A stretch of DNA of 38,009 bases from Chloroflexota bacterium (GTDB taxonomy: Bacteria > Chloroflexota > Dormibacteria > Dormibacterales > Dormibacteraceae). The stretch covers positions 1 to 38,009 of the forward strand of contig VBGP01000027.1 of NCBI GenBank assembly GCA_005880795.1, read 5' to 3'. The stretch's first letter is position 1. Each line of letters begins with the position of its first letter. This document shows, piece after piece, positions 6,088 to 35,246 of the stretch. The notes below the pieces were generated by a model. It saw nothing but the letters and a program-made list of their open reading frames with translations, had not been told where the DNA came from and did no database searches. A program made the translations under genes and the position numbers.

Positions 6088-6110
6088 ATGCCCTTCGACA
6101 TACTACCTTC

Positions 6111-9164: not shown

Positions 9165-9299
9165 CGTCCCAGAACGACCGGGACAGTTGACTTCAATCAG
9201 GTCACCCGGTGGGGCATGACACGTATTGAAATGCCCATTCAAATCGTGACCATCAAGCGATTACTTTCATGACAACAGAAGGTGCAGCGAGCAGGGCGG
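9165..9299 (+). promoter_or_regulatory. Probable control region of the sugar transferase operon
   Basis: This 135-base gap contains an imperfect 20-base palindrome at 9225-9244 (ATTGAAATGCCCATTCAAAT; 14 of 20 positions pair) and a second element at 9256-9278 made of AGCGA, ACTTTCA and TGACAACAG, which recurs upstream at 7362-7387. Base composition is more AT-rich than the surrounding genes. The palindrome looks like an operator for a dimeric regulator. No confident -35/-10 pair could be fixed. Confidence 0.4.
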
Positions 9300-9956
9300 A
9301 TGAATCATGTCGACTCGAGTCTTGGCCTGCAGGTTTCCGCGCTCAAGCACTTTCCATATGAGAGCACCCTCAAACGAGTGCTGGATGTGGTGCTCGCGAG
9401 TGTCGGGCTGCTGGCGGCGCTCCCTATCTGGCTGGCGATCGTTGTTGCGATAAGGCTTGACTCGCCGGGGGGCGCACTTTTCGTCCAGGACCGGGTGGGG
9501 GTTCACGGTCGCCGTTTTCGCTTTTACAAATTCCGCTCGATGTACGCCGATGCGGAGCACCGTGTCGGGGAGCTTCAGTCCAGCAACGAGGTGTCGGGGC
9601 CGGTTTTCAAGATGCGAGTCGACCCTCGGGTGACCAGGGTCGGAAACGTGCTTCGCCGTACCAGCCTCGATGAGCTCCCGCAACTGCTCAACGTGCTGAA
9701 GGGAGAGATGAGCCTCGTCGGGCCGAGGCCGCCACTCCCCAAAGAGGTGGAGCTGTACCGACCGAGCGACACGATGCGGCTCAGCGTGAAGCCCGGCCTG
9801 ACGTGCCTGTGGCAGATCGGCGGCCGCTCGACGATTGGGTTCGACGAATGGATGGAGCTTGACCGCGAATACATTCGCCGAATGTCGCTGCGGGTTGACC
9901 TGACCATTCTGCTGCGCACCGTCTGGGCGGTCCTAAGCTGCAGGGGAGCGTATTGA
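9300..9956 (+). CDS. Polyprenyl-phosphate sugar (glycosyl-1-phosphate) transferase, priming enzyme
   Basis: 218 residues from ATG 9300 (GCAGGG four bases upstream; a GTG at 9282 is a weaker alternative). It transfers a sugar-1-phosphate from a nucleotide sugar to undecaprenyl phosphate, starting repeat-unit assembly. Only the catalytic half of the family is present: one N-terminal hydrophobic segment ([24 protein letters not shown]), [21 protein letters not shown], the acidic [25 protein letters not shown] block and [14 protein letters not shown]. The family's N-terminal four-helix and CoA-binding-like domains are missing, as in short WcaJ/PglC-type forms. The stop overlaps the next start as TTGA. 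First of the operon with the GT2-GT26 fusion. Confidence 0.92.
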
Positions 9957-14866: not shown

Positions 14867-16354
14867 CTAGCTGGCGATTGGCGCGGGAGCGGTGGTCGTG
14901 ACGGCGGGACGCTCCTTGCGAAGGAGCTGAACCACCGATCGTGCGTCGCCGACGGTGAGCGTACGCAGGGCAACCGAAAGCAGGCCGTAAGCCAGGGCGC
15001 CGATCGCGATCAACAGCGGGAGCGAGAGCCCACCGGCCATGCGTACCGCAACCACCATTCCTAGCGTCGCAAGGCCGACCCGAGCGAAATAGAGTGCTTC
15101 GCGCCATCCCAGGAACCGCTCCTGAACGATCGCGAGCGCGACGACGGCGAAGACGAGCTCGCCGACAAGGTTTGCGACCGCGGCACCGATCCCGCCGTTC
15201 GACCATAGTCGCGTCGCAAGTGGAATCAGCCCGAGGTTCAGTGCCCCGAACAAGAAGAGCATGGCCCCACTTGCGGTGGCCCACGAGCGCTGACGACCTG
15301 TAGCGACCACCGTGCACGCCAGGACCATCACCACGGCAGTCACGACCCAGCTGGCGCTCAGCACGATGAGGATCGGAATGCTTCGGGAGAATGTTTCGGG
15401 GTAGTGCAGGAACGCGAAAAGCGGTTGGCCCACGGCGCTCAGGCCGGCCGCGAGGGGCATTGCCAGCATCAGGACCGCTTGCAAAGCGCGTCGCGAAGCG
15501 AGAGCGGCCGCCGCCGGCTGGGCCGCTCCCAACCGCGTCAGCACCGGTAGAAGTGCCGACGTCATCACCACTGGAACGAGCAAGACGGTGGTACTCAGGC
15601 GGGCGGCCGCCGCGAACCAGCCGACGGTAGCGTCGTTGGTCATCAAGCCCATGAATATCGTGTCGATCTGGCTGTAGAGGCCCTGCGACAGCGCGAGCGC
15701 GAGGAACGGCATGGCGCCAATCGCAATCTCGCGATAGTCCCCGCGCGAAGGGAGCGAGAGCGGCAGGCGCCTGCGGATGAAGTAGAAGGCGTTCACCGCG
15801 AGCCCTGCAATCGCGCCCGCCAGCAACGCGACGCAGAACCACACCGGACTGTGGGTCAAGACAAGGAGCGGCAGGCCGGCGAGCAGGACGATCATGCTGC
15901 TTGCAACCGCGGCAACCGAGCGCCAGCGCATCTCCTCCAACCCCTGCAGCGCCGAGGCGAGCACACCATTGAGGACGTTGAACAGGGTGACCGCGAACAG
16001 CACTGCGAGCACAACCATTGCCTGGTGTGACGTGCCCCGCAGGCTGATGTAGACCCAGGTGATCACGACCAGGACAGCCCAGACCGGTGCTCGCATCACA
16101 AGGCCGGCCGCGATCAGCTGCGACGAACGGCCGCGGTTCGCCGCCACTTCGCGAACGATGTACAGGTTCGTCCCCGCTACGGCAACCGCACCCAGGACGG
16201 TGCAAATCGAAAGGGCGAATGCCAGCTGGCCAAGACCTGCGTCGCCCAGATAAACGGGCAGGAGAACAACGGTGAGAAAGCCGAGCAGGGAAGTGATGAG
16301 CTGCGACGAAAGCAGAACCGCGACGTGGTTGACCAGCGAACGGGCCGCGTCCAT
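14867..16354 (-). CDS. Wzx-type polysaccharide flippase (MOP superfamily)
   Basis: 495 residues with about a dozen to fourteen hydrophobic helices spread over the whole length, starting with VNHVAVLLSSQLITSLLGFLTVVLLPVYLG, the N-terminal pattern of the MATE/Wzx superfamily (helix 1 with a conserved G and an L-P-xYLG end). Its job is to flip the lipid-linked repeat unit across the cytoplasmic membrane. The short hydrophilic C-terminal tail ends in TTTAPAPIAS. The ATG at 16354 overlaps the stop of the upstream GH44 gene by one base (TGATG), so translation is coupled. It is the last gene of a six-gene minus-strand operon, 21414 to 14867 (Wzz, ATPase, small membrane protein, Wzy, GH44, Wzx). Confidence 0.92.
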   Translation of the reverse strand: MDAARSLVNHVAVLLSSQLITSLLGFLTVVLLPVYLGDAGLGQLAFALSICTVLGAVAVAGTNLYIVREVAANRGRSSQLIAAGLVMRAPVWAVLVVITWVYISLRGTSHQAMVVLAVLFAVTLFNVLNGVLASALQGLEEMRWRSVAAVASSMIVLLAGLPLLVLTHSPVWFCVALLAGAIAGLAVNAFYFIRRRLPLSLPSRGDYREIAIGAMPFLALALSQGLYSQIDTIFMGLMTNDATVGWFAAAARLSTTVLLVPVVMTSALLPVLTRLGAAQPAAAALASRRALQAVLMLAMPLAAGLSAVGQPLFAFLHYPETFSRSIPILIVLSASWVVTAVVMVLACTVVATGRQRSWATASGAMLFLFGALNLGLIPLATRLWSNGGIGAAVANLVGELVFAVVALAIVQERFLGWREALYFARVGLATLGMVVAVRMAGGLSLPLLIAIGALAYGLLSVALRTLTVGDARSVVQLLRKERPAVTTTAPAPIAS

Positions 16355-18075
16355 CAGTGCGCCACCGGCACTCGCAGCAGGGTGATCGATGCCCGCGGAA
16401 CCTCGAGGGTCAGGGAAGCCGACGCGCTCGTATCGGCAAGGCGGACGATCGCGGACGAGTTGGCGTCCGAGTACTGGAATCGCTGAACGGGCCCTACCGC
16501 TGAGACTTTGCCCAGTCCGACGGTTAGGTTGTGAGCTGCCTGCAGATCCTTGTTGATCAATATGAGATCCACATATCCGGATCCCTTGCTGGCGAAAACC
16601 GAGACCGTGTCCGAAGCCGATGACGTTGCCCGCACTGACTGACTGCCGAACGTACCCTGCTTGCCGTCAGCGTTGCGGTACATGCGAAACGCGAACCAGG
16701 CCGGCGAACCGGGCTTCGGGGCGGTCCAATACGTGGCGATGTAGACGCCCTCCCGGCCGAATATTCCCAGGGCTTCCGCCTCGGCCAGTCCGGCGCTCGG
16801 GCTGTCGCCGCCGCCCATGTTGTACTCGGTAATTCCGACGCGAGTCCCGGGATACTCGGCTGCAACCCAGCTCTTGAGCCGCGGAATCAGGTTGACGGGC
16901 TGCTTGATCCAGGACTCGTCGACGTAAGTCGGATCCCACAGTGCGCGTGTGGCACGCATGCGCAGGGCGTCGATGTCCGGATTGGAGGTGTCGGTTGCGA
17001 CGCCGCGAGCCTCGGGGTAAAAGTGCACTGTGAGCACGTCGAGCGACCGCGTTCCAGTGGCCGCGTCGTGCTGCCGCGCGGCGTCGAGAAACCAGGGTAT
17101 GAGAGGCATCCCACCGTGCGCGTTCCGGTCGGGCTGGGTCGCAAAGTTGTCCGTCCCACGGTCCAGCTCCGAGTCCCAGTAATCCGTCCAGCAGCAGCTC
17201 TCGGGCCCCAGGAGCTGGGCTGTGGGGTCGACGCTCTTCACTGCAGCTGCGTACTGCAGGTAGGTGCGGGCGAGCTCGTCGTAACCGACCCGTGCCGGGT
17301 GCACGTCGCGATGCGTCTGCGACCAGAGCATCGGCTCGTTGTCGATGGCGTAGAAACCAACGCCGCCCGCGCCGGCGCTCCCAAACAGCGTGCGCAGGTG
17401 ATTCACCCACTCGTCCTGGTACACCGCCGCGCTGCCGGAATCGGGATTGAGCACGAATGGGGCGTTCTTGCGGGGTAAGGAGGGCACGCTGGTGCGCTGC
17501 CGGTTCGCCGCGGGGTCGTAGCCGGCGACGGCGCCATCGCTGGAGATCGCGGGCCCGCCGTCGCCGGGCACGTTCAGGGATTGGTCGGAGTTCTTGTCCG
17601 AGCGCGCCACCCAGCCGGTCGCCGGGATCGTGATGATCGAGGCCATGCCTCCGCTGCGGTCGCCGCTCACGAATCGGTCTGACTCAGATCCGCCCTGGTC
17701 GCTGTAGTTGAGATTGCGGAACTCCCAGTCGGAAGCGGCGTTCCAGGCGTGGCCGATCACCCAGTTGTAGCGGCTGCTTGGGTTGCCTCCCCAGCGATTG
17801 ATGGTGGCGTCGAGTCCCGCCACGGCGCCTGGGTCGCGCTTGGCGACCCCGTAGATGTACGGGCTGATGTCGTGCACGTCGGCGCTCGGGTCGACAACGA
17901 TCAAGATCTCGCCCGTCGCCATCGGCACCACGACCGATGGCGTCCCAGAGGTTCCCATCAGGTCATGCCAGAAGACTCTTGCGTCGTGCATCAGGACCCT
18001 GTGTTCGAGCAAGCCGACACTGGCAAGCAAGAGCACGTTGAAGACCAGGCTGAGCGCGAGGAGCTTGCGCCTCAT
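16354..18075 (-). CDS. Membrane-anchored glycoside hydrolase, family GH44-like
   Basis: 573 residues. A hydrophobic N-terminal helix (about 5-23, after MRRK) acts as signal or anchor, so the enzyme faces outward. The catalytic core resembles GH44 endoglucanase/xyloglucanase: ATINRWGGNPSSRYNW (90-105), YAIDNEPMLWSQTH (242-255) with the likely acid/base E247, and VGITEYNMGGGD (413-424) with the likely nucleophile E417. A beta-rich C-terminal part follows (about 480-573). GH44 enzymes cleave beta-1,4-glucans and related polymers by a retaining mechanism. Placement between Wzy and Wzx, with four-base and one-base overlaps to them, suggests it trims or releases the polymer made by this locus instead of scavenging plant material. 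Substrate is inference. Confidence 0.85.
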   Translation of the reverse strand: MRRKLLALSLVFNVLLLASVGLLEHRVLMHDARVFWHDLMGTSGTPSVVVPMATGEILIVVDPSADVHDISPYIYGVAKRDPGAVAGLDATINRWGGNPSSRYNWVIGHAWNAASDWEFRNLNYSDQGGSESDRFVSGDRSGGMASIITIPATGWVARSDKNSDQSLNVPGDGGPAISSDGAVAGYDPAANRQRTSVPSLPRKNAPFVLNPDSGSAAVYQDEWVNHLRTLFGSAGAGGVGFYAIDNEPMLWSQTHRDVHPARVGYDELARTYLQYAAAVKSVDPTAQLLGPESCCWTDYWDSELDRGTDNFATQPDRNAHGGMPLIPWFLDAARQHDAATGTRSLDVLTVHFYPEARGVATDTSNPDIDALRMRATRALWDPTYVDESWIKQPVNLIPRLKSWVAAEYPGTRVGITEYNMGGGDSPSAGLAEAEALGIFGREGVYIATYWTAPKPGSPAWFAFRMYRNADGKQGTFGSQSVRATSSASDTVSVFASKGSGYVDLILINKDLQAAHNLTVGLGKVSAVGPVQRFQYSDANSSAIVRLADTSASASLTLEVPRASITLLRVPVAH

Positions 18076-19598
18076 CTGGCGTGCCGGACGGCCGTAAGCC
18101 GATGTGCGGCCTCGACGGTCCCTAGAGCTGCGCCGATAACGATTGACACACGCAGGCTGACGAGGCCCTGGTCGTACCAGCCCTCGATCAGATAGGCGGC
18201 TATGGCCACCAATACCACGATTCCGATCAGGGCAATCTGCGGATCACTTCGCCGGGCAAGCCGGCAGGCCGCGATGACGGCGGCAGCGACCATCCACCAG
18301 AACGCGATGGCTCCCAGGATTCCCAGCCGCAACCAGAGATAAAGGATCGTGTTGTGCGGCTCATATGCGATGAAAGCGTCGATGTTGCTCAGGTTGGGCA
18401 GCCCGATCGTGGTTGGTAACGGCTTGCCAAATCCGAGGCCGAAAGGCGTCGTAGCGCGGATGTCGATCCCAAGGTCGGTGTTCTCAATCACTCGATAGAG
18501 GTCCGACGCAGCGTCTCGCCGATTTGGGTCGATCGCCGAGCGAATGGCGCTGGCGGGCTCCGCCAGGACGCCCGTGCGGTTCCAGAAGAAAGGCAGGTAA
18601 AGGGCGGTGAGGCTGAGAATCGCTACAGCGATTCCACCAGTCATCCAACGCCGCCGCGGCGAGCGGGCCCACGCGACCGCGAGCAGGATGGCAAGCCCCG
18701 CGCCCAGCACCACGTACGCGGTTCGCCGGTTGTTGACAAGGTTGGCGAACACCACCATCGGAAGCAGCGCGGTCGCCACTTGCCGCATGCGACCCTTGAT
18801 TCCGTACATCCACAAGGCCGACGTGAGGAGGATGTACACGCCGAGGAAAACCGCTTCCTCGTGAGCGATCACGTTTGCTGCAGGTGGACTCGCCCCACGC
18901 AAGGCAAGGAGATACCTGAGCGTGCCTTCCAATCCCTTCAACCCGCTAGCGATGATCAGGGTCCACAAGAAGGCGAGGATGTTTCGACGCGAGACGAAGA
19001 GCTGCGCGGCGAGAAGGTACAGGCAGGCGAGATACGCCCACGGGCGCAGCTCCCACAGTGATGCGGTCAGGTTTCCTCCGGTGGCCAGTCCGTGCAGCTC
19101 GCCCGCGATGACCGCCACGACGACCAACGCGACGCCGGCGGCGAGATGGGATCGCGGCGCGGCAAGCGTCCCTTCGGCCGCGGCCTTCGCGATCCAGGTC
19201 ATCGCTACCGTCGCCACGATCAGCTCCGCCGGGTTGACTGCGAGACCGGAAAGCCCGGCCCCCACGGTAAGGCTCTTGAATATCGGGACCGCCTCGGTGA
19301 TCGTCTTCAGGCCGGCGATCGACGGGTATTCCTCGAACAGCAAGGCCAGCCCGACGAGCATCACCACGCCAGCCGGTGGCCACCGCCAGGTGATGACAGG
19401 GACCAGGAACCAGATCAGCACGGCGATCCCGAAGGTGTAGCCGCTCAGAGTGAGCTCGCCGATCAGAATGCCGGCCAAGGCGGCGAACACGAGGAATGCC
19501 GCGCCGAGGATCAGAGTCCGATCGCGTGACGCGCGCGCGACTTCGCGCACAGAGGGTCCTGATGCCGCGGGAGAAAGCTCAGCGTCCAAGGCCGGCAT
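18072..19598 (-). CDS. O-antigen ligase/Wzy-like polysaccharide polymerase
   Basis: 508 residues from ATG 19598 (TTG 19607 would add three). About ten to twelve membrane helices and one large outward loop near residues 320-420 containing RRDAASDLYRVIENTDLGI and PFGLGFGKPLP, then EPHNTILYLWLRLGILG, the H-N-x-x-L pattern typical of the O-antigen ligase/Wzy_C family. It should join lipid-linked repeat units on the outer face of the membrane. The gene overlaps the upstream small membrane protein gene by 20 bases and the downstream GH44 gene by four (ATGA), so the whole block is translationally coupled. Polymerase rather than ligase is the more likely role because Wzx and Wzz are adjacent and no other polymerase is present. 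Confidence 0.88.
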   Translation of the reverse strand: MPALDAELSPAASGPSVREVARASRDRTLILGAAFLVFAALAGILIGELTLSGYTFGIAVLIWFLVPVITWRWPPAGVVMLVGLALLFEEYPSIAGLKTITEAVPIFKSLTVGAGLSGLAVNPAELIVATVAMTWIAKAAAEGTLAAPRSHLAAGVALVVVAVIAGELHGLATGGNLTASLWELRPWAYLACLYLLAAQLFVSRRNILAFLWTLIIASGLKGLEGTLRYLLALRGASPPAANVIAHEEAVFLGVYILLTSALWMYGIKGRMRQVATALLPMVVFANLVNNRRTAYVVLGAGLAILLAVAWARSPRRRWMTGGIAVAILSLTALYLPFFWNRTGVLAEPASAIRSAIDPNRRDAASDLYRVIENTDLGIDIRATTPFGLGFGKPLPTTIGLPNLSNIDAFIAYEPHNTILYLWLRLGILGAIAFWWMVAAAVIAACRLARRSDPQIALIGIVVLVAIAAYLIEGWYDQGLVSLRVSIVIGAALGTVEAAHRLTAVRHAR

Positions 19599-19719
19599 AC
19601 ACCACAAGCAGAGTCACCAGGACCACTACCAGGGCACTCAGATGGGTCGAGCCCCCGAATCTGCGGTCGCGTAAGCCGAGGAACATGAAGGCCGCCAGGA
19701 GGACGGCAATCCAGGTCAC
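19579..19719 (-). CDS. Small two-helix membrane protein, 46 residues
   Basis: GTG at 19719 with AGGTAAG about nine bases upstream, stop at 19579. The product begins VTWIAVLLAAFMFLGLRDRR, has a short basic loop RDRRFGGST, then a second helix LSALVVVLVTLLVVYAGLGR, so it is a helical hairpin. It lies between the ATPase gene (7 bases downstream of its stop) and the Wzy-like gene, whose start it overlaps, in a block where every junction is overlapping or near. This arrangement supports it as a real gene. I recognise no family; a role as a partner of the polymerase or of Wzz is only a guess from position. Confidence 0.6.
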   Translation of the reverse strand: MTWIAVLLAAFMFLGLRDRRFGGSTHLSALVVVLVTLLVVYAGLGR

Positions 19720-26564: not shown

Positions 26565-27622
26565 GCAGGGTCGGTGTCTTCTTTGCGAGCCGGCCTCCCG
26601 ACCCACGTGGCCCACACCGCGATCATCTCGAGTTCTGCCGCGCGACCGGCGCGGAGCTCGTCTGCCTCGAGCCGAAAGTCCCACCAGCGCTGAAGAGACG
26701 GCTTCGTCTACGACATCCACTGATCGGGATGTGGATGGCGTGGTCGATCTTCCGCGTGCGGCGCCGTTACGACGTCTTGATCACGGACTCCGAGCACGTC
26801 GGCCTACCCCTTGCTTTGATGCTCAGGGTTTCCCGGTCGCGCTGCCGCCATGTTCTCGTCGTGCACCTGGTGTCCACACCGCTGAAGGCCTTTTTCATCA
26901 GGTACCTCGCGGGCAGGGGCGTGAGCTGCTACGTGTACCACTTTCCCTCCGCCGAGCCCGTGCTGGAGCGACTTGGGGTGCCGCCCGAGCGGCGCCGTTT
27001 CGTGCCCTACATGGTCGATTCCGAGTTCTGGTCTCCGGTCGATGTCCCTCAGAAACGTCAGATCTGCGCTGTCGGGCTCGAGTATCGCGACTATCCGACG
27101 CTGCTCGAGGCTGTGCGCGGGGTCGATGTCGCGGTCGACATCGCAGCCGGCAGTCCGTGGTCGCAGAAGGCTGACGGCACTCACCGCGCGGAGCTGCCGC
27201 CCAACGTCCGTGTCGGCCGGCGCGACTACGCGGAGCTGCGGCAGCTCTACGCTGAATCCCTTTTCACCGTCGTCCCACTTCTTGAAAACGAGATGCAGGC
27301 AGGCATCACCACGATCGTCGAATCGATGGCGATGGGGCGGCCGGTCGTCGTCTCCCGGACACGCGGCCAGGTCGGGACCGTCCGCGACAGCCACAACGGG
27401 CTCGAGGTTCCGCCAGGAGACGTGGCCGCACTCCGGCGGGCGATCCACTGGTTGCTCGACCACCCGGAAGAGTGCCGCCGCATGGGAGCCGAAGGCCGCC
27501 ACACGATCGAGTCGGGAATGACCCTCGAACATTTCGTCGAGCGGATGTCGGCCGTCGTCGCAACAGTGTCTGATCCAGGCCCGCGCCTCGCGTCAGGCGT
27601 CACCCCTGAGGCCGCACGGTGA
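26561..27622 (+). CDS. GT4-family glycosyltransferase
   Basis: 353 residues from TTG 26561, overlapping the preceding stop as TTGA. GT-B fold with a weak N-terminal half (RVGVFFASRPPDPRGPHRDHLEFC, then ITDSEHVGLPLALML) and a clear C-terminal GT4 half: VRVGRRDYAELRQLYAESLFTVVPLLENEMQAGITTIVESMAMGRPVVVSRTRG, NGLEVPPGDVAALRRAIHWLLDHPEECRRMGAEGR. The E-x7-E type motif is present in the ENEMQAGITTIVE stretch (E plus seven residues plus E pattern visible). It probably adds a further sugar to the repeat unit. The stop overlaps the deacetylase start as GTGA. Confidence 0.87.
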   Translation: MSRVGVFFASRPPDPRGPHRDHLEFCRATGAELVCLEPKVPPALKRRLRLRHPLIGMWMAWSIFRVRRRYDVLITDSEHVGLPLALMLRVSRSRCRHVLVVHLVSTPLKAFFIRYLAGRGVSCYVYHFPSAEPVLERLGVPPERRRFVPYMVDSEFWSPVDVPQKRQICAVGLEYRDYPTLLEAVRGVDVAVDIAAGSPWSQKADGTHRAELPPNVRVGRRDYAELRQLYAESLFTVVPLLENEMQAGITTIVESMAMGRPVVVSRTRGQVGTVRDSHNGLEVPPGDVAALRRAIHWLLDHPEECRRMGAEGRHTIESGMTLEHFVERMSAVVATVSDPGPRLASGVTPEAAR

Positions 27623-28362
27623 GCGAGCTCACATGGATGCCGATCCTGATGTACCACCGCATCGTGGAACAAGAGCCGCCGGTCGATCCGGACCGAATCT
27701 GCACATCGGTGGGTCGACTGGCCGATCACCTTGATTTGCTGGCCGCACACGATTTCGCGGCAGTGCCGCTCGAGCTCGCCTGTCGACCGCCGGAGCATGG
27801 GGAAGGACGGCGCTTTGCGATCACATTCGACGACGGCTACGAGGAGACCCTGCGACTGGCACAGCCCGTGCTCGAGGCCCGATCCCTCCCCGCCACGGTA
27901 TTCGTGGTGAGCAGCATGATCGGCGGGAATGCGACCTGGAACGACGAGCCGCGGCCGCTCTTGACGCGGACGCAGCTGCTCGATCTGCATGCGAGCGGAA
28001 TGTTCATCGGCAGCCACGGCCGGAATCATCGCCGGCTCTCGACGTTGGAACCCCCAGCCATCCAGGACGAGGTGCAAGGCTCGCGGGAAGAGTTGGAGCA
28101 ATTGCTCGGAGTCGCGGTGAGGTTTATTGCCTACCCGCATCACGACCTCGATGCTCGCGTGGCAGCGGCCGCGGCGAGTGCAGGTTATGCGGGCGCGGCG
28201 GGCGGCCGCGCGGGGCGGCATGAGCGATACAACCTGCATCGCATCGACGCCGGGCGGATGAGCACGCGGGAGCTCTTGCTCCACGCGTCGGGCCTGCATC
28301 GCTGGGCGCGGCGGCAGCCAATGGCGCGCGCTGTACGCCGCGCCGCGGTTCGGTTCTTCTGA
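27619..28362 (+). CDS. Polysaccharide deacetylase (NodB/CE4 domain)
   Basis: 247 residues from GTG 27619. CE4 metal-dependent deacetylase that removes N-acetyl (or O-acetyl) groups from a polysaccharide. Motifs: MYHRIVEQ near the start, catalytic motif 1 FAITFDDGYEET (about 71-82), metal-binding motif 2 SHGRNHRRLS (about 133-142), and motif 3 FIAYPHHDLD (about 172-181), where R-P-P/Y is replaced by Y-P. No signal peptide or membrane segment is visible, unlike secreted CE4 enzymes, so it may act on the lipid-linked unit inside the cell or belong to the cytosolic subset. It suggests that the polymer contains an N-acetylated sugar made cationic. Followed after two bases by a GNAT gene. Confidence 0.9.
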   Translation: MSELTWMPILMYHRIVEQEPPVDPDRICTSVGRLADHLDLLAAHDFAAVPLELACRPPEHGEGRRFAITFDDGYEETLRLAQPVLEARSLPATVFVVSSMIGGNATWNDEPRPLLTRTQLLDLHASGMFIGSHGRNHRRLSTLEPPAIQDEVQGSREELEQLLGVAVRFIAYPHHDLDARVAAAAASAGYAGAAGGRAGRHERYNLHRIDAGRMSTRELLLHASGLHRWARRQPMARAVRRAAVRFF

Positions 28363-28364
28363 CG

Positions 28365-29543
28365 GTGGACGTTTCAGTCGAGACTCCAGGCCCGGGTCTC
28401 TTCCTCGATGAGTGGGACGCGCTGGCGCGCACATCGCCATCGGGAGTGTTCGGCACCGCGGAATGGCACGCAGCAGTGCAGAAGGCGTACGGAGACCGCG
28501 GCCGCGCCGCTGTTGCTGCGTTCCGCGAACATGATCGCCTCCTCGGGGTCGCGCCATTTCGCTTCGGCTCTCGACCCTTGATACATGACGCCACTTTGCT
28601 CGGCATGGGAGAGGGCGGATACGGCCTGGGCGACTACGCCGGAATCCTTGCCGCACCAGGACGCGAGGGGGACGTTGCCGATGCCGTCGTCTCGTGGCTC
28701 GCCGCGAGCGCTGGATGGGATCTGCTCGATCTGCAGCAGCTCCCCCCGGGGCGATTGACCAAGGCGCTGCTCGAATCGATCCGACGCGCGGGCCTGAGGT
28801 CTTTGGTGCGCCGGCACAACATCTGCCACGTGATCGAGCTGCCGTCGACGTGGGCGGAATATCGATCTCGGCTTTCGCCCGGCGCCCGCGACTGGCTCGA
28901 ACGCAAACCGCGCAAGGCGGAACGTGAGCTCGGCGCGACAATCGAGCTCATCGAGCCGGACCGCTTGATCGAAGAGTACCGGACGATGCGCCGGTTCCAG
29001 GCCCAGCGCTTCGGAGGGCAGCCGCCGGAAAGGGAGAGCAAGCTGGCAGCCGTCATCTCGGCGTGGCTGCCCGTGGCTTACGAGCGGAACTGGCTGCGGA
29101 TGTTCCGGCTCAGGAGCGGCTCCCGAACCATCGGCGTTCTGCTCGGCTACGAGTACGAGGACGCTTTCTATTTCCACTCGGCGGCGTTCGAATCACTTGG
29201 CGAGGGAGCCAAGTACAGTCTCGGCGCATCGCTGCTCGCCGCCGCCCTGCACTACAGCATCGACCACGGGCTCGAGCGCTTCGACATGCTTCGCGGCCAT
29301 TACGACTACAAGGTCCGTCTGGGCAGCGAAAAGCGCTACAACTACCGCGTCATGGTTTTCCGCGACTCGCTGATGGGTCGCGGGATCGAGGCGGCACTTC
29401 ACATCCGCACCATTCTCAAAGGCAAGCGACCGTGGCGGACCGAGCTGGAAGGGCCTCTCGATGTGGAGGCCGGTTCCGACGACTCAGATCGCTCGGCGCG
29501 CGCGCCGGAGCACCTGGCGACCTCCCCGGTAGGAGTCGAGTAA
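28365..29543 (+). CDS. GNAT acyltransferase of the FemAB/BioF2-like (Acetyltransf_6) type, copy 1
   Basis: 392 residues from GTG 28365. Two tandem GNAT folds are expected in this family. Typical stretches: VFGTAEWHAAVQKAYGDRGRAAVAAF and LLGVAPF in the N half; RRFQAQRFGGQPPERESKLAAVISAWL, FRLRSGSRTIGVLLGYEYEDAFYFHSAAFESLGEGAKYSLGASLLAAALHYSIDHGLERFDMLRGHYDYKVRLGSEKRYNYRVMVFR in the C half. Members such as CelD/BcsL-like proteins in polysaccharide loci transfer acyl groups, or amino acids from tRNA in FemX proteins; here a polysaccharide acylation is likely. The acyl donor is unknown. The last 60 bases overlap the 3' end of the convergent GNAT gene. Confidence 0.85.
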   Translation: MDVSVETPGPGLFLDEWDALARTSPSGVFGTAEWHAAVQKAYGDRGRAAVAAFREHDRLLGVAPFRFGSRPLIHDATLLGMGEGGYGLGDYAGILAAPGREGDVADAVVSWLAASAGWDLLDLQQLPPGRLTKALLESIRRAGLRSLVRRHNICHVIELPSTWAEYRSRLSPGARDWLERKPRKAERELGATIELIEPDRLIEEYRTMRRFQAQRFGGQPPERESKLAAVISAWLPVAYERNWLRMFRLRSGSRTIGVLLGYEYEDAFYFHSAAFESLGEGAKYSLGASLLAAALHYSIDHGLERFDMLRGHYDYKVRLGSEKRYNYRVMVFRDSLMGRGIEAALHIRTILKGKRPWRTELEGPLDVEAGSDDSDRSARAPEHLATSPVGVE

Positions 29544-30554
29544 AACCCTCAGCGTCCTCGCCCGCCGGGCCCAGGTCATCTCGAGCTGGTACCGCCTGCA
29601 CGTGTCCCATCTGGTCTTGAAGTGGCCGGTGCCGCGCAGGAACTCGACCCGATCTTTGCCCCTGGCGATTCCATATTTCAGGATCTCCGAGGTCGTGATC
29701 ATCGCGACTGAGAAGCGGGACCACTCGGGCAGATAACCTGAGTAGTAGAGAAAAATCGTCCTGTCGCTCTCGAGCCAAACCTGGCCCGCTATCACCTGGC
29801 CCCGCACCTCGAGCAGAGCGACTTTCATCTCACCTCGGGCCGCGAGAATTGGCGCCACCTCATCCAGAAACGCGCGGTGGTCGGCCCGCTCCAGGTAGTC
29901 CTTGTGGGTGACGCCGTCTTGCGTGGCCGCCCTTGCTGAGTGGAGCCGGTAGATCGTGGGGAGCGCCGCCGAAACGTCGGCCGCGGACTCAGCGAATCGC
30001 AATTCGAAAGGGAGGCCTTCGCGAAGCATCAGCCGTGGGTAGTACTTCACATTGCCGCGCATGCTGCGGTTCAGCCCCCGGACCATCTCATCCCACGTCG
30101 CCGGCAGCTCCCGGTACTCGAAGGGCATGTTGACCGTGCTCGCCACTCCTAGCCCGTCGAGGCCCTCCGCGAGGTCACCGTCTTCCAGACCGGACAGCCC
30201 GACCCATCCCCACCTCGACTCCGCGAGGTGGCCCCGGAGCGCGGCCATGAGCCGCGGCCGTTGCGCCCGTGGAAACAGCAGCTCCAGCTGCTCGGTAAGC
30301 AGGTTGCCCCACCCGATCGGGACCAGCGAGGTCACCCAGCCGTGCCTGCGCTCCTGGAGCTGCGCGAGGCCCACGAGCCGGCCGTCAGAACGGAAAACCA
30401 CGAGGTGCGGGCGCCGGCCGAAGTGCTTCCACCAGACGTAGTTCCAGTCCCAGGAATGGAAGGGGGAGGGGAGGTCGAGCGTGTCGGCCAGCGAATCCCA
30501 CTCCGAATGGAGGCTGACAAACCCCTGCTCTGTCGTGATGACCGAGGTCTCCAT
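29484..30554 (-). CDS. GNAT acyltransferase of the FemAB/BioF2-like type, copy 2
   Basis: 356 residues from ATG 30554, chosen for the GGGA five bases upstream (GTG 30596 would add 14 residues). N-terminal half includes SPFHSWDWNYVWWKHFGRRPHLVVFRSDGRLVGLAQLQ, the classic start of this family; C-terminal half has EVRGQVIAGQVWLESDRTIFLYYSGYLPEWSRFSVAMITTSEILKYGIARGKDRVEFLRGTGHFKTRW. It is about the same size as its convergent neighbour, and both may modify the same polymer. Strand inversion and the 60-base tail-to-tail overlap mean the two transcripts are antisense to each other at their 3' ends. Substrate unknown. Confidence 0.85.
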   Translation of the reverse strand: METSVITTEQGFVSLHSEWDSLADTLDLPSPFHSWDWNYVWWKHFGRRPHLVVFRSDGRLVGLAQLQERRHGWVTSLVPIGWGNLLTEQLELLFPRAQRPRLMAALRGHLAESRWGWVGLSGLEDGDLAEGLDGLGVASTVNMPFEYRELPATWDEMVRGLNRSMRGNVKYYPRLMLREGLPFELRFAESAADVSAALPTIYRLHSARAATQDGVTHKDYLERADHRAFLDEVAPILAARGEMKVALLEVRGQVIAGQVWLESDRTIFLYYSGYLPEWSRFSVAMITTSEILKYGIARGKDRVEFLRGTGHFKTRWDTCRRYQLEMTWARRARTLRVLLDSYRGGRQVLRRARRAI

Positions 30555-30734
30555 CGATTCCCATGCCTGACCTGTCTCGAGGCGGACGGCTACCACAGTT
30601 CCCCCTGCATCTTATGGAGCCTCGGCCTGGCTTCAGAATGGGCGATGACGTGCCGGGCCGGACGGGGGGCCCAAACGGGTCCCAGGATGTCCCATTGCGC
30701 CGGTCGGGACCGCCTGTTACCAATTGCTCCAGCG
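30555..30734. promoter_or_regulatory. Divergent intergenic region between GNAT copy 2 and the small membrane/acyltransferase pair
   Basis: 180 bases. AATGGGCGAT lies at 30637-30646, the same core as elements at 21445-21452 and (reverse strand) 35028-35035. GTCCCATTG lies at 30689-30697 area, a weaker relative. A CCCATT/AATGGG partial dyad and the GGGGGGCCC run at 30664-30672 are the only other features I see. Promoters for both directions should be here, but none can be fixed. Confidence 0.35.
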
Positions 30735-30884
30735 GTGATCAAAGATCCTGGTGATCTCATCGAAAAGCCCCTGCATCTGCTGGGTCTCCACCATTCGTCG
30801 GCCATTGCCGTCGCAGCGGTGATCGGCCTCGTGCTGGGGGTCGGGTTGATCCTGCTCATGCGGAGGCGAACCTTGCTCAGATGA
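30735..30884 (+). CDS. Small single-span membrane protein, 49 residues
   Basis: GTG at 30735 to TGA at 30884, where the next gene starts as ATGA. The product reads VIKDPGDLIEKPLHLLGLHH, then a hydrophobic helix SSAIAVAAVIGLVLGVGLIL and a basic tail LMRRRTLLR, so it is N-out/C-in by the positive-inside rule. The four-base overlap with the acyltransferase gene is the best evidence that it is real; no Shine-Dalgarno sequence is visible and a leaderless transcript is possible. No family recognised. It might anchor the soluble acyltransferase or another enzyme at the membrane. Confidence 0.55.
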   Translation: MIKDPGDLIEKPLHLLGLHHSSAIAVAAVIGLVLGVGLILLMRRRTLLR

Positions 30885-31471
30885 GCGAACGCTTGCTGCC
30901 CGCGCTTTTCCGGTTGCCCAGGCCCCCCATCGATTACCTGCGTGAGCCGCGGCGAAGCGTGCGCCGGTTGTTTCGCTTCTTCAATGCGCGATGGCAGCTG
31001 CGCAGCAGCGACCACCTTGGACCCTGGGTTCGCGTGCAAGGTCGCATGCACGTCAGCAATCGCGGCCACCTCAACGTCGGCGAGCGAGTGGCCTTCCTCT
31101 CGCACCCGGTACCGATCATCCTCCACACCCTTCCTGGCGCTCGCCTGGACATTGGCGACCGGACAGTGCTCAATTACGGGATCGACATCTCGGCCGTGAA
31201 GGAAGTCCGTATCGGCGCTGACTGCCTCCTTGGAACTCATGTCTCGATTCTCGACAACGATTTTCACGAGCTGACGGCTCGTGACCGCATGCCGGAGTCC
31301 CGCCCTGTCCTGATCGCGGACGGTGTCTGGATCGGCAACCGTGTTCTGATCCTGCCGGGAGTCAGCATCGGGGCCGGCGCGGCTGTTGGAGCCGGCTCCG
31401 TGGTGATGACCGACATTCCGGAGCGATGCCTCGCCCTGGGCAACCCCGCGCGCGTGATCAAGAAGTTCTGA
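30881..31471 (+). CDS. Hexapeptide-repeat O-acyltransferase (left-handed beta-helix)
   Basis: 196 residues from ATG 30881. The middle and end show hexapeptide repeats: LNVGERVAFLS, ARLDIGDRTVLNYGIDISAVKEVRIGADCLLGTHVSILDNDFHEL, PVLIADGVWIGNRVLILPGVSIGAGAAVGAGSVVMTDIPERCLALGNPARVIKKF, the standard C terminus of maltose/galactoside O-acetyltransferase-type enzymes. The catalytic His is probably that of NDFHEL. These enzymes form trimers in the cytoplasm and use acetyl-CoA or acyl donors. It probably acylates a sugar of the repeat unit. The 3' end overlaps the convergent acyl carrier protein gene by 14 bases; acyl-ACP use is possible but not shown. Confidence 0.9.
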   Translation: MSERLLPALFRLPRPPIDYLREPRRSVRRLFRFFNARWQLRSSDHLGPWVRVQGRMHVSNRGHLNVGERVAFLSHPVPIILHTLPGARLDIGDRTVLNYGIDISAVKEVRIGADCLLGTHVSILDNDFHELTARDRMPESRPVLIADGVWIGNRVLILPGVSIGAGAAVGAGSVVMTDIPERCLALGNPARVIKKF

Positions 31472-31730
31472 CCGAATCCGACCTTGGAGCCGGCGCGCGG
31501 CTCTCGAGTACCTGGACGATCGCCTCGGCGCTGGTCATCTCCACTATCTCTTCGGTGGTGAACGGAGTCCCGAAGTACTCTTCGAGCGCGACCACGACGG
31601 TCAGGTGGTACAACGATGTCCACCTAGGGCATGTGTCCTGGGTCAGGTGCGCCGGTAGTTCCGCCTCGTCCACAAAAAGAGCGCCCGCGATGATCCGCCT
31701 CACCTCGGCCGCTATCTCGGTGTTGCTCAC
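31458..31730 (-). CDS. Acyl carrier protein, stand-alone
   Basis: 90 residues, the normal size. Four-helix ACP pattern: IAAEVRRIIAGALFVDEAELPA, then the phosphopantetheine site WTSLYHLTVVVALEEYFGTPFTTEEIVEMTSAEAIVQVL. The usual D-S-L is T-S-L here, with the modifiable Ser39. This W-x-S-L-x-H-L form is seen in ACPs that partner FkbH-like enzymes. The start ATG overlaps the FkbH stop as ATGA, so the pair is produced together; AcpS, encoded two genes upstream, would install the phosphopantetheine arm. Likely cargo is glyceryl or another short hydroxyacyl group. Confidence 0.87.
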   Translation of the reverse strand: MSNTEIAAEVRRIIAGALFVDEAELPAHLTQDTCPRWTSLYHLTVVVALEEYFGTPFTTEEIVEMTSAEAIVQVLESRAPAPRSDSVRTS

Positions 31731-33583
31731 GCGACCACCGCCGCGTCTTCCATCTCGATCCAGGAGGGAACTGTGATTGGGTTTGTCTCGAGGCCAATCT
31801 CCCAGAGCTCGCCGCCGTCCGTGGTTGCGGTGTGCAGGCGAAAACCGTGTCGCGCGTAGCAGTCACGGGCGGGTCCATTCCGCTCGGTGGGTAAAAACCA
31901 ACCCTGAATTCGTGCGCCCCCACGAGCACGCACTGCTCTTGCAACATGCGACAGCAGGCCCGATTCAACGTCGCGGCCGATGACACGGCAGCTCAGAAGG
32001 AGCACGTCGAGCTCCCACGTATCGTGCGACCGTGCGACCGCGATCGCCAGCCCGACGATGCCGTTGTCCCCGAAGCGATCGACGACGCGCAGTGCGGACA
32101 CTATGGCGCCGTCGGATTGCAGGGCACGGATCTCCGTCTCGGTGTAGCGCCGAGTCGTCAGGTTGAACTGATTGGTCTTCTGGGTCAGCTGAGCCAATCT
32201 CGGCAGAACGCCGGCGGAGGCCGCGGTGATCTCCACCCTGGTTTCCAGCTTGGAGAGGTAGCTCTCGACAGAACCATCGGAGTTGTCCGCTTCCAGCCTC
32301 CTTCGGTGCGTGCGCGCCGTGTACGCCGCGTTCCGGCGAAGGTCCTCCTCGGTGACGGCAAGCGTGTCGAATGCGCTGAGCTCCACGAGCGCTTGGCGGT
32401 AGTAGGCCGGATCGGTGGGGAGGTCGGGGCAAAGCACCTGGGGCAGCGCTGCTCGTACCGCGGCCCTCTCCACGGGGTTGTCATCGAGGAACACCATGCT
32501 GTCGAGGCCGATGTCGAGCTCGGCGGCGATCTGCCGCAGATTGCTGGGCTTGGGCTCCCAGTTGATGCGTTGGGCGGCAAAATGTGACTCGCGCAGCACC
32601 ATCGCCGGGTGGCGGAACGCCGCCATCGCCTGATCGGGGTCGTTCTTGCTGCAGATCGCAAGCAGGACGCCACGGTTCCACAGCCTCAGGATTTCGCGCT
32701 GGAACATCACGTAGGCGTTGCCCGGAGCGTCAGCGCCCAGCTTCAGGCCCTCGACCCCATCCTCGCCGACGACCCCACCCCACAGGGTGCCGTCCAGGTC
32801 CAACACCAGGCACTTGCGGGCGCGCCCGAATGCGGCGCCGAGGTAGCGCATGTGCTCGGTTGTCAGCTCTTGCAACATGGTCTCGCTCCACGGCAGGCGT
32901 GCGGCGAGCCAGAGGCGGACATCGGTTGCTCGCGACTTACCGCATCGGGCCTGCACCGCATCGGCATCGAGAATGTGAACCCCGAGGAATTCGTCTCGCG
33001 CCAGGCGCGCCATGCGCATGTTGATCTCGTTGAAGATCGCCCGCTGGCCGAACGGATCGCGCCAATCGGCGATGCCAAGGGCCGGGTGCTGCGGCTGGAC
33101 CATGTTGTGCAGAATGACCACCGCCTGGCTCTGCCTTCGAAAAGCGGTTAGCAGCTGACGGACGGTGTCGAGACCAGCCTCGATGGCCATCTCCCGCTCG
33201 CTGACCGTGATTTCGAACGGGTACTCATGCAGGACGGGAAACAGCTGCCGCGGGTGCACGGCAAGGATCAAGACCTGTGGATCGAAGCGGTAAAGTGCGC
33301 TGGCCGGAACCAGCATCTCCTGGGCATACTGATCGAATCCGGACAGATGGATTCGGGGCCGCCAACCATCGCGGTAGCAACCGACGGCCAGACAATCGCG
33401 CAGCTGATCGAGCGTGCCGCTTCCCAACAAGGCAAATCGCAATTCGGCATGCGGATCGGGGGGAGAGCCTTGCTGCAGGGCAGCAAGACGCGGCGCAACC
33501 ATGAGGGCCGTGCGGGCGCTGCGATCGTCTCGGATCAATCGGAGGTAGTGGTCCAGGGTTTCCTCGGTGTCGACGTTGTCCAT
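31727..33583 (-). CDS. FkbH-like HAD-IIIC/acyltransferase protein (probable glyceryl-ACP forming enzyme)
   Basis: 618 residues, full length for FkbH with its N-terminal extension. An SGNH-like N-terminal part (about 45-240, RFALLGSGTLDQL; FDPQVLILAVHPRQLFP) precedes the HAD domain with KCLVLDLDGTLWGGVVGEDG (about 252-272), ICSKND, and SMVFLDDNPVERAAVRAALPQV. A C-terminal GNAT-like part follows (VVDRFGDNGIVGLAIA; LLLSCRVIGRDVE; ARDCYARHGF). FkbH proteins take 1,3-bisphosphoglycerate and load a glyceryl unit on ACP, releasing phosphate, in polyketide and some polysaccharide pathways. Start ATG 33583 lies two bases after the AcpS stop. Context within an exopolysaccharide locus suggests a glyceryl-derived decoration. 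Confidence 0.9.
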   Translation of the reverse strand: MDNVDTEETLDHYLRLIRDDRSARTALMVAPRLAALQQGSPPDPHAELRFALLGSGTLDQLRDCLAVGCYRDGWRPRIHLSGFDQYAQEMLVPASALYRFDPQVLILAVHPRQLFPVLHEYPFEITVSEREMAIEAGLDTVRQLLTAFRRQSQAVVILHNMVQPQHPALGIADWRDPFGQRAIFNEINMRMARLARDEFLGVHILDADAVQARCGKSRATDVRLWLAARLPWSETMLQELTTEHMRYLGAAFGRARKCLVLDLDGTLWGGVVGEDGVEGLKLGADAPGNAYVMFQREILRLWNRGVLLAICSKNDPDQAMAAFRHPAMVLRESHFAAQRINWEPKPSNLRQIAAELDIGLDSMVFLDDNPVERAAVRAALPQVLCPDLPTDPAYYRQALVELSAFDTLAVTEEDLRRNAAYTARTHRRRLEADNSDGSVESYLSKLETRVEITAASAGVLPRLAQLTQKTNQFNLTTRRYTETEIRALQSDGAIVSALRVVDRFGDNGIVGLAIAVARSHDTWELDVLLLSCRVIGRDVESGLLSHVARAVRARGGARIQGWFLPTERNGPARDCYARHGFRLHTATTDGGELWEIGLETNPITVPSWIEMEDAAVVA

Positions 33584-33585
33584 CC

Positions 33586-34008
33586 TCAGACGCGTTCTTC
33601 GCAGAGCATGACGACTGCCGTCGCCAGCGCTTCAACGTGCGAAAGGCTCACGTATGCGCGGTGACCCGCCAGCAGAGACCGCCGCTCTTTGTCGATACCT
33701 TCTCTCAAGCGCAACGAAGGGCTTCCCGAACCCGAGCGAGTTACCTCGAAGTGCCAGGGCAGCAGCGTGGCAATCGCGCCAGCCGCCTTGACCGCGGCCT
33801 CCTTGGCCGCGAAGCGCGCCGCGAAATGCCGTGCGGGTACCGCCCTCGACTGGCAGTAAGTGATCTCAGCCTCGGTGAAGCAGCGACTGTAGAAGCGTGG
33901 GTTCGATTCATACGAAATGCGTTCAAAATCGGCCACGTCGACGACGTCAACTCCAACACCGACGAGTTGCCGGTGCTGGTTCTCCCCAGCCAACGATGGG
34001 CGATTCAT
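33586..34008 (-). CDS. acpS: Holo-ACP synthase (phosphopantetheinyl transferase, AcpS type)
   Basis: 140 residues from ATG 34008, which overlaps the methyltransferase stop as ATGA. It transfers the 4'-phosphopantetheine arm of CoA to the serine of an ACP. The motifs are complete: VGVGVDVVDVADFERI (Mg-binding aspartate, about 17-32), FTEAEITYC, and ARFAAKEAAVKAAG (about 68-81), plus the C-terminal YVSLSHVEALATAVVML. The first 16 residues are extra compared with typical AcpS and rich in polar residues; a later start is possible but the overlap favours this one. Being in one operon with FkbH and ACP indicates a dedicated enzyme for that ACP, or simply the only copy in the genome; the window cannot tell. 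Confidence 0.9.
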   Translation of the reverse strand: MNRPSLAGENQHRQLVGVGVDVVDVADFERISYESNPRFYSRCFTEAEITYCQSRAVPARHFAARFAAKEAAVKAAGAIATLLPWHFEVTRSGSGSPSLRLREGIDKERRSLLAGHRAYVSLSHVEALATAVVMLCEERV

Positions 34009-34895
34009 CGATGGGCGACCGCAAACAGCAGCTCGCCTGATTGCACGGCGAGCGGAGGCAGCGCGCGAATGACTCGATCCAGAGCCGGTACAGCGAGGCG
34101 CTTTGGGAGGTTGAGAATGCCACTCACGCGCGGGTTGCGAAAGTGCCCGAGCAGGCCGGCGAGCTCGGCTCCTTCGAAGCGGTAGAAGTACAGATCGCCA
34201 TTGTGTGACCCTTCGCGGGGAGCACGTCGCCGCCTCAGGCTCCAGGAGTAGTTGTACGCGGTGATGGCCATCCGGCCGCCGGGGCGAAGCACGCGGTGGA
34301 TCTCCTCGACGCATCGCTTTCTCTCTTGAGCAGGAGTGATGTGCTCGAGGAGCATTCCGCTACCCAGCTTCTCGATGCTGGATGTGCGGATCGGCAGATG
34401 GCAGGCATCGGCCATGACGTGAACCACCTGGTCGCCCAGGCCGGCCTCTTCGCATTTCTGCCGGTTGATTTCCAGTGATCGCAGTGACAGGTCTACCGCC
34501 ACCACCTTCGCACCGCGACGAGCAAGCGGAAGAGTCAATCTTCCAGTTCCCGCGCCGAGGTCTACGACAGTCTCGCCGCGCGCCGGGCGAAGTGCTGAAA
34601 CGATCGCGCGCACCTCGATCGCGTTGTGGCTCGGCGATAGGGACTCGTCATACCGGTTGGAATCGTTGTCACGAGCTCTTCTCTCCAGCATCCTTGGGCC
34701 CCGGGCTGCTGGCGCAAGGTTCTGGAGCGCCATGAGAAGAGGAATGCCGTTAGAGATCGGATATACGGCGGAGCAGTGGTTGCAGCGAATGGATCCGGAG
34801 ACGACTTCCCGATCAATTGTTTTCGTTGCCTCAAATCGCAAGTCCCCCGAATGGTCGATGGGACAGCAAAGCCAAGAGAGAACGTCGGGCTTCAT
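34005..34895 (-). CDS. SAM-dependent methyltransferase with N-terminal Trm112-like zinc ribbon
   Basis: 296 residues from ATG 34895. The N terminus MKPDVLSWLCCPIDHSGDLRF...SIRCNHCSAVYPISNGIPLLM (about 1-55) is a Trm112-like zinc-ribbon segment with two cysteine pairs (CC and CNHC). The methyltransferase core has TVVDLGAGTGRLTLPLARRGAKVVAVDLS (about 108-136), ADACHLPI and LLEHITPAQERKRCVEEIHRVLRPGGRMAITAY. A TTG start at 35027 would add 44 residues without conserved features, although GGAG lies nine bases before it. Zinc-ribbon methyltransferases of this kind are common in polysaccharide and secondary-metabolite loci. First gene of the methyltransferase-AcpS-FkbH-ACP operon; substrate unknown. 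Confidence 0.87.
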   Translation of the reverse strand: MKPDVLSWLCCPIDHSGDLRFEATKTIDREVVSGSIRCNHCSAVYPISNGIPLLMALQNLAPAARGPRMLERRARDNDSNRYDESLSPSHNAIEVRAIVSALRPARGETVVDLGAGTGRLTLPLARRGAKVVAVDLSLRSLEINRQKCEEAGLGDQVVHVMADACHLPIRTSSIEKLGSGMLLEHITPAQERKRCVEEIHRVLRPGGRMAITAYNYSWSLRRRRAPREGSHNGDLYFYRFEGAELAGLLGHFRNPRVSGILNLPKRLAVPALDRVIRALPPLAVQSGELLFAVAHR

Positions 34896-35246
34896 CGGAG
34901 CGAGTGGGACGTCGCGCGGTCGCCAATATCCTGTTGCACGCCGTCGTCCAGTATCCGAACCGGGGCGCGCGCTACGAATCGGCAAGATCGGCGGGTCGTT
35001 CGGAAAGTCCAGTTCGTCTTGGGACAATCGCCCATCTCCGGCTGGGCCGGGGGACTAGGCAAGACGGGACTCGGGCGGTTAGACTGGCCCACCATGCGAG
35101 GGAGTCAATTAACTTTCCTTTACCCGCGCCTGTCGATATGTGCGCGCACGGCGAAGGGTTTCGAGCGAATCCGCGTTAGAGCGGCTTAGTGTACCCGCGC
35201 CCTGGAGGCAAGCCTCCCGGGTAGCAACACGGAAGGGGTAGGCACT
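34896..35246. other. 351-base divergent intergenic region with leader of the secreted phosphoesterase gene
   Basis: No supported protein gene. It must hold the promoters for the methyltransferase operon (minus) and the secreted protein (plus). TCGCCCAT at 35028-35035 is the reverse complement of the ATGGGCGA element at 21445-21452 and 30638-30645. An AT-richer patch TCAATTAACTTTCCTTTACC at 35104-35123 stands out from the GC-rich surroundings. The last 60 bases form a structured leader (separate entry). Exact promoter positions are not clear by eye. Confidence 0.45.
35193..35243 (+). promoter_or_regulatory. Leader hairpin with alternative pairing that covers the ribosome binding site
   Basis: Hairpin: outer stem ACCCG (35193-35197) with CGGGT (35218-35222), bulge CGCCCT, inner stem GGAGGC (35204-35209) with GCCTCC (35212-35217). 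Downstream is the ribosome site GGAAGGGG (35231-35238). The 3' arm GCCTCCC (35212-35218) can instead pair with GGGG-U-AGGC (35235-35243): seven base pairs with one bulged U. The two folds exclude each other, so the first would free and the second would mask the ribosome site. No known riboswitch core is recognised. Confidence 0.4.

Follow-up and report, generated by a model that had tools for sequence, protein, structure and literature searches.

A putative AcpS, FkbH, ACP and hexapeptide transferase module for glycan acylation in a Chloroflexota bacterium and in archaea

The flagellin of Campylobacter jejuni carries di-O-methylglyceric acid on pseudaminic acid (PMC3068675), and the flagellin locus includes an fkbH-domain gene, cj1302 (PMC7099621). 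Glyceroyl groups are also present in a glycan of Tannerella forsythia that contains Pse5Am7Gra, for which "a candidate gene ... remains elusive" (PMC6120980), and in Pragia fontium, where D-glyceroyl is carried on Qui2NAc4N as Qui2NAc4N(D-glyceroyl) (listed in PMC10609480). Contig VBGP01000027.1 of a Chloroflexota bacterium (Dormibacteraceae; assembly GCA_005880795.1), which was analysed over its whole length of 38,009 nucleotides (nt) and is hereafter called the window, encodes an FkbH protein together with an acyl carrier protein (ACP), a holo-ACP synthase (AcpS) and a hexapeptide-repeat acyltransferase within a glycan locus. With a probability of roughly 0.6, these four proteins are considered to form an acyl-donor module, in which a C3 unit, probably D-glyceryl, would be delivered to a sugar via the dedicated ACP. 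A limited search of the open-access literature found no description of the AcpS-FkbH-ACP-hexapeptide unit or of its archaeal occurrence, and a similarly limited open-access search on FkbH with O-antigen or archaea found nothing relevant.

The genes of the cassette and its immediate neighbour are as follows (aa, amino acids; SAM, S-adenosylmethionine):

31458..31730, minus strand: predicted dedicated acyl carrier protein (ACP), 90 aa, GTG start
31727..33583, minus strand: FkbH, 618 aa (TIGR01686)
33586..34008, minus strand: AcpS, predicted dedicated holo-ACP synthase, 140 aa (PF01648)
34005..35027, minus strand: methyltransferase with a Trm112-like zinc ribbon and a class I SAM domain, first gene of the operon (PF08241, PF03966)
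30881..31471, plus strand: hexapeptide-repeat (left-handed beta-helix) acyltransferase, convergent, the proposed transferase (PF00132)

These coordinates bear out an earlier note, made from the sequence alone, which had described AcpS, FkbH and ACP as a tight operon beside a methyltransferase gene and convergent with a hexapeptide gene. On the minus strand, the order is methyltransferase, AcpS, FkbH and ACP, and the 3′-ends of the hexapeptide and ACP genes overlap by 14 nt. The methyltransferase and AcpS genes are joined by an ATGA overlap, a 2-nt gap separates AcpS and FkbH, and the overlap between FkbH and ACP is GTGA, because the start codon of ACP is GTG. No dehydrogenase or ketosynthase gene adjoins AcpS-FkbH-ACP in the window, and the whole genome (3.22 Mb in 217 contigs, 95.5% complete) contains only two ketosynthases, both FabF-sized; therefore, no modular polyketide synthase (PKS) was found in the genome, in agreement with the earlier remark that a PKS and dehydrogenases are missing.

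The FkbH protein scores 297 bits against TIGR01686 over residues 255–583, above the curated cut-off of 146.65, and comprises an N-terminal BF1531/SGNH-like domain, a HAD-IIIC phosphatase domain and a C-terminal GNAT-like domain. The HAD residues D262, D264, S312, K345, D367 and D368 are all kept, C532 is located in the motif SCRVIGR of the C-terminal domain, and all of these residues are identical in 85/85 FkbH homologues. Judged by these residues, the window FkbH is catalytically intact, and the inactive active site that would have refuted the earlier idea was not encountered. In an AlphaFold2 model built from 32 sequences (mean predicted local distance difference test score, 90.3), the C-terminal domain has the GNAT-like order b-a-a-b-b-b-a-b-a-b-b, and C532 lies directly after the fourth strand and is followed by RxxGR; in our interpretation of the model, this would be the place at which GNAT enzymes bind the pantetheine donor. 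The only solved FkbH relative recognized by sequence is BF1531 of Bacteroides fragilis (3slr), the match to which spans residues 47–412. In the FkbH tree, the window protein lies with bacterial sequences, outside the archaeal clade; hence, the cassette did not come from Asgard archaea by simple import, and a transfer of the window FkbH from that source was rejected.

The earlier note had proposed a survey for FkbH-ACP pairs lacking polyketide genes. At least 550 FkbH relatives were recovered when 84,980 species genomes were scanned, and the best 80 loci, which span many bacterial phyla as well as Asgard, Bathyarchaeota, Nitrososphaerota, nanoarchaeal and methanogen metagenome-assembled genomes (MAGs), were analysed. 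An ACP gene is located within 200 bp of FkbH in 64/80 loci and a GT2 or GT4 glycosyltransferase gene within 10 kb in 46/80, and a pattern search detected a ketosynthase motif in 0/80. Hexapep (15) is the Pfam family most often encountered among 135 immediate neighbours; short-chain dehydrogenases (13), MaoC (10), GT2 (9) and MBOAT (7) come next, with approximately seven each for the GNAT and methyltransferase families. From these counts, glycan loci emerge as a widespread setting for FkbH-ACP. Within the window's own family, several relatives carry FkbH-ACP alongside DegT, hexapeptide, GNAT, FemAB or deacetylase-like genes. An AcpS gene adjoins FkbH in 11/80 loci; a hexapeptide gene is directly convergent in five of these 11 and in none of the 69 AcpS-lacking loci, and one is found within 10 kb in 11/11 and 19/69 loci, respectively (Fisher p 5e-6, ancestry uncorrected). 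Short-chain dehydrogenase/ketoreductase and MaoC genes are often found directly beside FkbH-ACP, pointing to another, reductive version of the pair, and in a genome of the same genus an ATP-sulfurylase/APS-kinase fusion near FkbH-ACP (L011:6815-9796) suggests a sulfated glycan. No match to a Stutzerimonas FkbH gene was found in Escherichia coli genomes.

The window ACP is divergent, with no Pfam match and values of only 8e-4 for the ACP models of NCBIfam, but it is homologous to the ACPs adjoining FkbH in other loci. Its phosphopantetheine site is Ser39 in RWTSLYHL, and the assignment is sound, since Ser39 lies in the RWTSL motif and an ACP gene accompanies FkbH at close range in so many of the surveyed loci. 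The AcpS protein matches PF01648 with 59.5 bits (cut-off 25; E 4e-16) and resembles the solved Streptomyces coelicolor-type AcpS (2wdy/2jbz; E 1.1e-14 for 2wdy). The genome contains a second AcpS, on contig C76, and two further ACPs besides the proteins of the cassette. In a 57-row tree, the window AcpS is sister to an FkbH-linked AcpS of Dehalococcoidia (100/90), the two join the AcpS rows from archaea (97/83), and they stand apart from the C76 enzyme and from other bacterial AcpS. By its placement in this tree, the window AcpS belongs to an FkbH-linked lineage and not to the housekeeping AcpS lineage of its genome. In genome G195, whose FkbH is closest to that of the window, the N-terminal part of an Sfp-type phosphopantetheinyl transferase (L252:2-481, PF22624) is encoded after FkbH, an indication that enzymes dedicated to carrier activation were gained more than once.

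The hexapeptide protein scores 36.3 bits against PF00132 (cut-off 27); its top solved match is the polysialic acid O-acetyltransferase 3jqy, and its nearest families are WbbJ and the maltose or polysialic acid O-acetyltransferases. Its link to the carrier is provided by two genomes of the same phylum. In genome G119, which has one of the two FkbH proteins nearest to that of the window in the tree, one frame of 381 codons (L251:6185-7327, on a 218-kb contig) encodes an ACP, a linker and a hexapeptide transferase, and ends 4 nt before the FkbH gene. The ACP part of this fusion is 39% identical to the window ACP, and the transferase part, 55–57% identical to the window hexapeptide protein, is the nearest relative of the latter. 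In genome G302, the contig breaks off within an operon that runs from the hexapeptide gene through AcpS into the beginning of FkbH. In a tree of 21 hexapeptide rows, nearly all of which were collected by similarity to the fusion alone, the window and fused proteins are sisters (99/96) and the G302 protein branches next to them (83/81); FkbH was seen beside the genes for these three, whereas a distant paralogue from locus L042 lies outside. The fusion, the operon and this grouping are the reasons for selecting the hexapeptide protein as the transferase, and the presence of an ACP fused to its homologue suggests that it may take acyl-ACP rather than acyl-coenzyme A (acyl-CoA). Two long ACP-containing open reading frames (ORFs) that looked like further fusions (L066, L071) were rejected, because only an ACP domain was found and the frames probably overlap. 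Directly upstream of the G119 fusion lies an AbiEi/AbiEii type IV toxin-antitoxin pair (L251:3887-5508).

On the basis of these data, the following pathway is proposed (for the chemistry, see PMC8949500). AcpS would arm ACP with phosphopantetheine; FkbH would take 1,3-bisphosphoglycerate, the phosphate of which would be removed by the HAD domain; and the C3 acyl group would pass via Cys532 of the GNAT-like domain to the ACP thiol, yielding D-glyceryl-ACP. The left-handed beta-helix transferase would then transfer the acyl group from ACP onto the hydroxyl or amino function of a sugar, the acceptor being a sugar precursor or a lipid-linked repeat from the surrounding glycan locus. The identity of the group as glyceryl is suggested by the family membership of FkbH, and its route through Cys532, the use of acyl-ACP by the transferase and the sugar acceptor are likewise predicted. 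An ester is somewhat likelier than an amide because the nearest solved relatives of the transferase are O-acetyltransferases, whereas the nearby polysaccharide deacetylase keeps an amide possible.

The same arrangement as in the window, AcpS, FkbH and ACP with a convergent hexapeptide gene, is found in Lokiarchaeota (L016), Thorarchaeota (L018/L019), Bathyarchaeum (L021) and a Dehalococcoidia MAG (L042). FkbH scores over the cut-off in 36/195 Asgard genomes, and in the best 29 Asgard loci of the cassette type (L136-L164), an adjacent ACP gene is found in 29/29, a convergent hexapeptide gene in 26/29 and an adjacent AcpS gene in 26/29, the remaining three being cut by contig ends. By our count, 26 of 39 short AcpS frames in Asgard genomes are located within approximately 2 kb of FkbH. 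The other AcpS matches in these genomes lie mostly inside far longer ORFs, many of approximately 3,300 aa (L170, L175-L177, L189), suggesting megasynthases. In the Nitrososphaerota, a variant (L024, L029, L030, L033) consists of FkbH-ACP, a gap of approximately 400 nt and AcpS, with a divergent hexapeptide gene upstream. In Thorarchaeota (L018), a Polysacc_deac_1 gene comes after the convergent hexapeptide gene, and a geranylgeranyl-reductase-like gene (L018:5191-6426) lies a few kb from the cassette. The surroundings of the Asgard cassettes L016, L018 and L019 gave no glycosyltransferase matches. The occurrence of the same gene set in Asgard and other archaea gives it the look of a portable toolkit for the decoration of cell-surface sugars.

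In the window, the cassette is accompanied by the following genes:

27619..28362, plus strand: polysaccharide deacetylase, NodB-fold (PF01522, 5.7e-23)
28365..29543, plus strand: FemAB/BioF2-like protein 1, rival candidate for acceptor transferase (PF13480)
29484..30596, minus strand: FemAB/BioF2-like protein 2, rival candidate for acceptor transferase (PF13480)
14867..16354, minus strand: Wzx-type flippase of the glycan locus (Polysacc_synt)
18072..19607, minus strand: Wzy_C / O-antigen-ligase-like polymerase
9282..11944, plus strand: two genes, for an initiating sugar-phosphate transferase (Bac_transf) and a GT2-WecG glycosyltransferase

The rest of the contig encodes Wzx, a Wzy-like protein, Bac_transf, WecG, GT2, GT4, GT9 and the polysaccharide deacetylase; the earlier note had described the setting as an exopolysaccharide locus. 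A GH44 glycoside hydrolase gene (16354-18075) separates the Wzx gene from the Wzy-like gene. The left end of the contig (genes at 2108-7315) resembles an aromatic acyl-CoA catabolic cluster, with a 1002-aa Oxidored_FMN and FAD_binding_3 fusion and an AMP-binding ligase at 2108-6087 and an enoyl-CoA hydratase at 6203-7315, and a secreted-looking phosphoesterase with PKD domains (35292-38009) runs off the other end.

The methyltransferase (Trm112-like plus Methyltransf_11) probably starts at the ATG at 34898 rather than at the TTG at 35027. It was rejected as a conserved partner of the cassette, since no homologue was found in 85 other FkbH loci. An ACP-FkbH-methyltransferase-VOC arrangement occurs on the Paroceanicella plasmid pD4M1C (L276:7540-11242), with MprF and AcvB/VirJ lysyl-phosphatidylglycerol genes directly downstream.

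Several observations weigh against the proposed module. Hexapeptide acyltransferases are common in exopolysaccharide loci, and among solved structures the window protein is closest to O-acetyltransferases that use acetyl-CoA, so that it could simply acetylate. The ACP-hexapeptide fusion is a single case. The window hexapeptide protein shows no special closeness to its convergent counterparts in archaea, and the shared convergent layout could therefore be partly the result of convergent evolution. Gene calls in the survey loci are ORF-based, and the co-occurrence counts take no account of shared ancestry. Other FkbH-ACP pairs adjoin MBOAT, GNAT or short-chain dehydrogenase/MaoC genes, showing that the end use of the pair varies, and the Thorarchaeal cassettes adjoin a helicase gene and a geranylgeranyl-reductase-like gene rather than glycosyltransferase genes, so a polymer acceptor is not general. 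The position of the latter cassettes, together with the abundance of hexapeptide genes in glycan loci, would fit a real AcpS-FkbH-ACP unit with a coincidental hexapeptide neighbour and an acceptor elsewhere (e.g., a lipid or protein); this is quite improbable given the fusion, the operon, the tree clade and the co-occurrence counts.

A different transferase is unlikely, although less so: glyceryl-ACP would be made as proposed, but a FemAB or GNAT protein would N-acylate an amino sugar derived through the NodB-like deacetylase or an aminotransferase, and the hexapeptide protein would be an ordinary O-acetyltransferase. The NodB-fold protein could expose an amine for such N-acylation; two PF13480 proteins and the deacetylase are encoded 1–4 kb from the cassette, FkbH-ACP of relatives adjoins GNAT (L009, L011), FemAB (L009, L011), DegT (L010) or deacetylase-like genes, and GNAT families are frequent among the survey neighbours. 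However, the fusion and the operon tie ACP and FkbH to the hexapeptide protein, no PF13480-ACP fusion was seen, and the classic donor of FemAB proteins is aminoacyl-tRNA. Of the two transferases suggested in the earlier note, an acyltransferase or one of "two GNAT proteins", the former is thus favoured by the ACP fusion and the G302 operon, and the latter label does not hold for these FemAB/BioF2-type (PF13480) proteins. It is improbable, too, that the loaded group is another small hydroxyacid, or glyceryl O-methylated on ACP by the operon methyltransferase, giving a hydroxyacyl or methoxyacyl substituent on the sugar. The translational coupling of the methyltransferase to AcpS, the similar gene set on the Paroceanicella plasmid and the di-O-methylglyceric acid of C. 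jejuni flagellin (PMC3068675), whose locus has the fkbH-domain gene cj1302 (PMC7099621), agree with such a product, and O-methylation by this enzyme may be entertained as speculation; yet the window and Paroceanicella enzymes are unrelated beyond their fold (E 0.013), no homologue of the former was found in the 85 FkbH loci noted above, and no dehydrogenase or reductase adjoins the cassette. Very improbable is a part in a secondary-metabolite pathway of the tetronate or methoxymalonyl type, with an accidental position in the glycan locus. Both pathways have FkbH and a lone ACP at their core (PMC7489565), and the Methylosinus plasmid pOB3b3 has the full tetronate set beside a PKS, but no gene for a FabH/KASIII-like protein, E2-like acyltransferase, dehydrogenase or PKS adjoins the window cassette, its genome has no ketosynthases beyond the FabF-sized pair, and relatives and archaea carry the cassette without a PKS; both pathways were rejected on account of the absent partner genes and PKS.

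The acyl-donor module ending in the hexapeptide transferase is therefore preferred. The gene set, the intact FkbH residues, the recurrence of the cassette, the ACP-transferase fusion, the FkbH-linked AcpS lineage and the lack of polyketide partners can be read directly from the sequences and, with the operon and the co-occurrence counts, support the polyketide-free FkbH-ACP route feeding an acyltransferase that the earlier note had put forward, the observation of which is confirmed and the interpretation partly supported. A wider reading is more tentative: the cassette may be a portable, carrier-dependent glycan-acylation module, present in bacteria and in archaea that otherwise make little use of ACP, and for many Asgard archaea it may represent the principal stand-alone phosphopantetheine system, dedicated to attaching glyceric acid to surface sugars or glycolipids; if so, it would name the missing glyceroyl genes. 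Glyceroyl groups are known from O-antigens and glycoproteins of bacteria, but the genes attaching them have been called elusive (PMC6120980), and the cassette is a compact candidate in which the transferase is named. It would extend FkbH chemistry, known from polyketides, to glycan decoration, and the Asgard and archaeal cassettes, with their own carrier-activating enzyme, would show ACP chemistry outside fatty-acid and polyketide synthesis in these organisms.

Compared with polyketide FkbH loading systems (FkbH, OzmB, Mad7/Mad14; PMC7489565), the window cassette is alike in protein family, catalytic residues and the pairing with a lone ACP, but it lacks dehydrogenases, KASIII, E2 and PKS genes beside it and has instead AcpS and a hexapeptide acyltransferase within a glycan locus. 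The tetronate operon requires a FabH/KASIII-like protein and an E2-like acyltransferase, which are absent beside the window cassette and present in Methylosinus pOB3b3, and the methoxymalonyl-ACP pathway uses two dehydrogenases and an O-methyltransferase with a PKS, whereas the window has no dehydrogenase near the cassette and its genome no modular PKS. BF1531 (PDB 3slr), which shares the N-terminal and HAD domains of FkbH, is named as an uncharacterized protein in its record. On pSymB of Sinorhizobium meliloti, MBOAT and ACP-FkbH genes near capsule export genes form a parallel with a different acyltransferase. LpxA and LpxD are left-handed beta-helix acyltransferases that transfer an ACP-bound hydroxyacyl group to a sugar and thus provide a mechanistic precedent, although the nearest families of the window protein are instead WbbJ and the maltose or polysialic acid O-acetyltransferases. 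The C. jejuni locus is alike in having an fkbH-domain gene in a surface-glycan locus and a glycan with a C3 acid, and the window also has a methyltransferase gene; it differs in that the two papers cited on it (PMC3068675, PMC7099621) describe no AcpS-FkbH-ACP-hexapeptide unit there and assign no enzyme to glyceric acid formation. The glyceroyl glycans of T. forsythia and Pragia fontium are the kind of product proposed for the window cassette.

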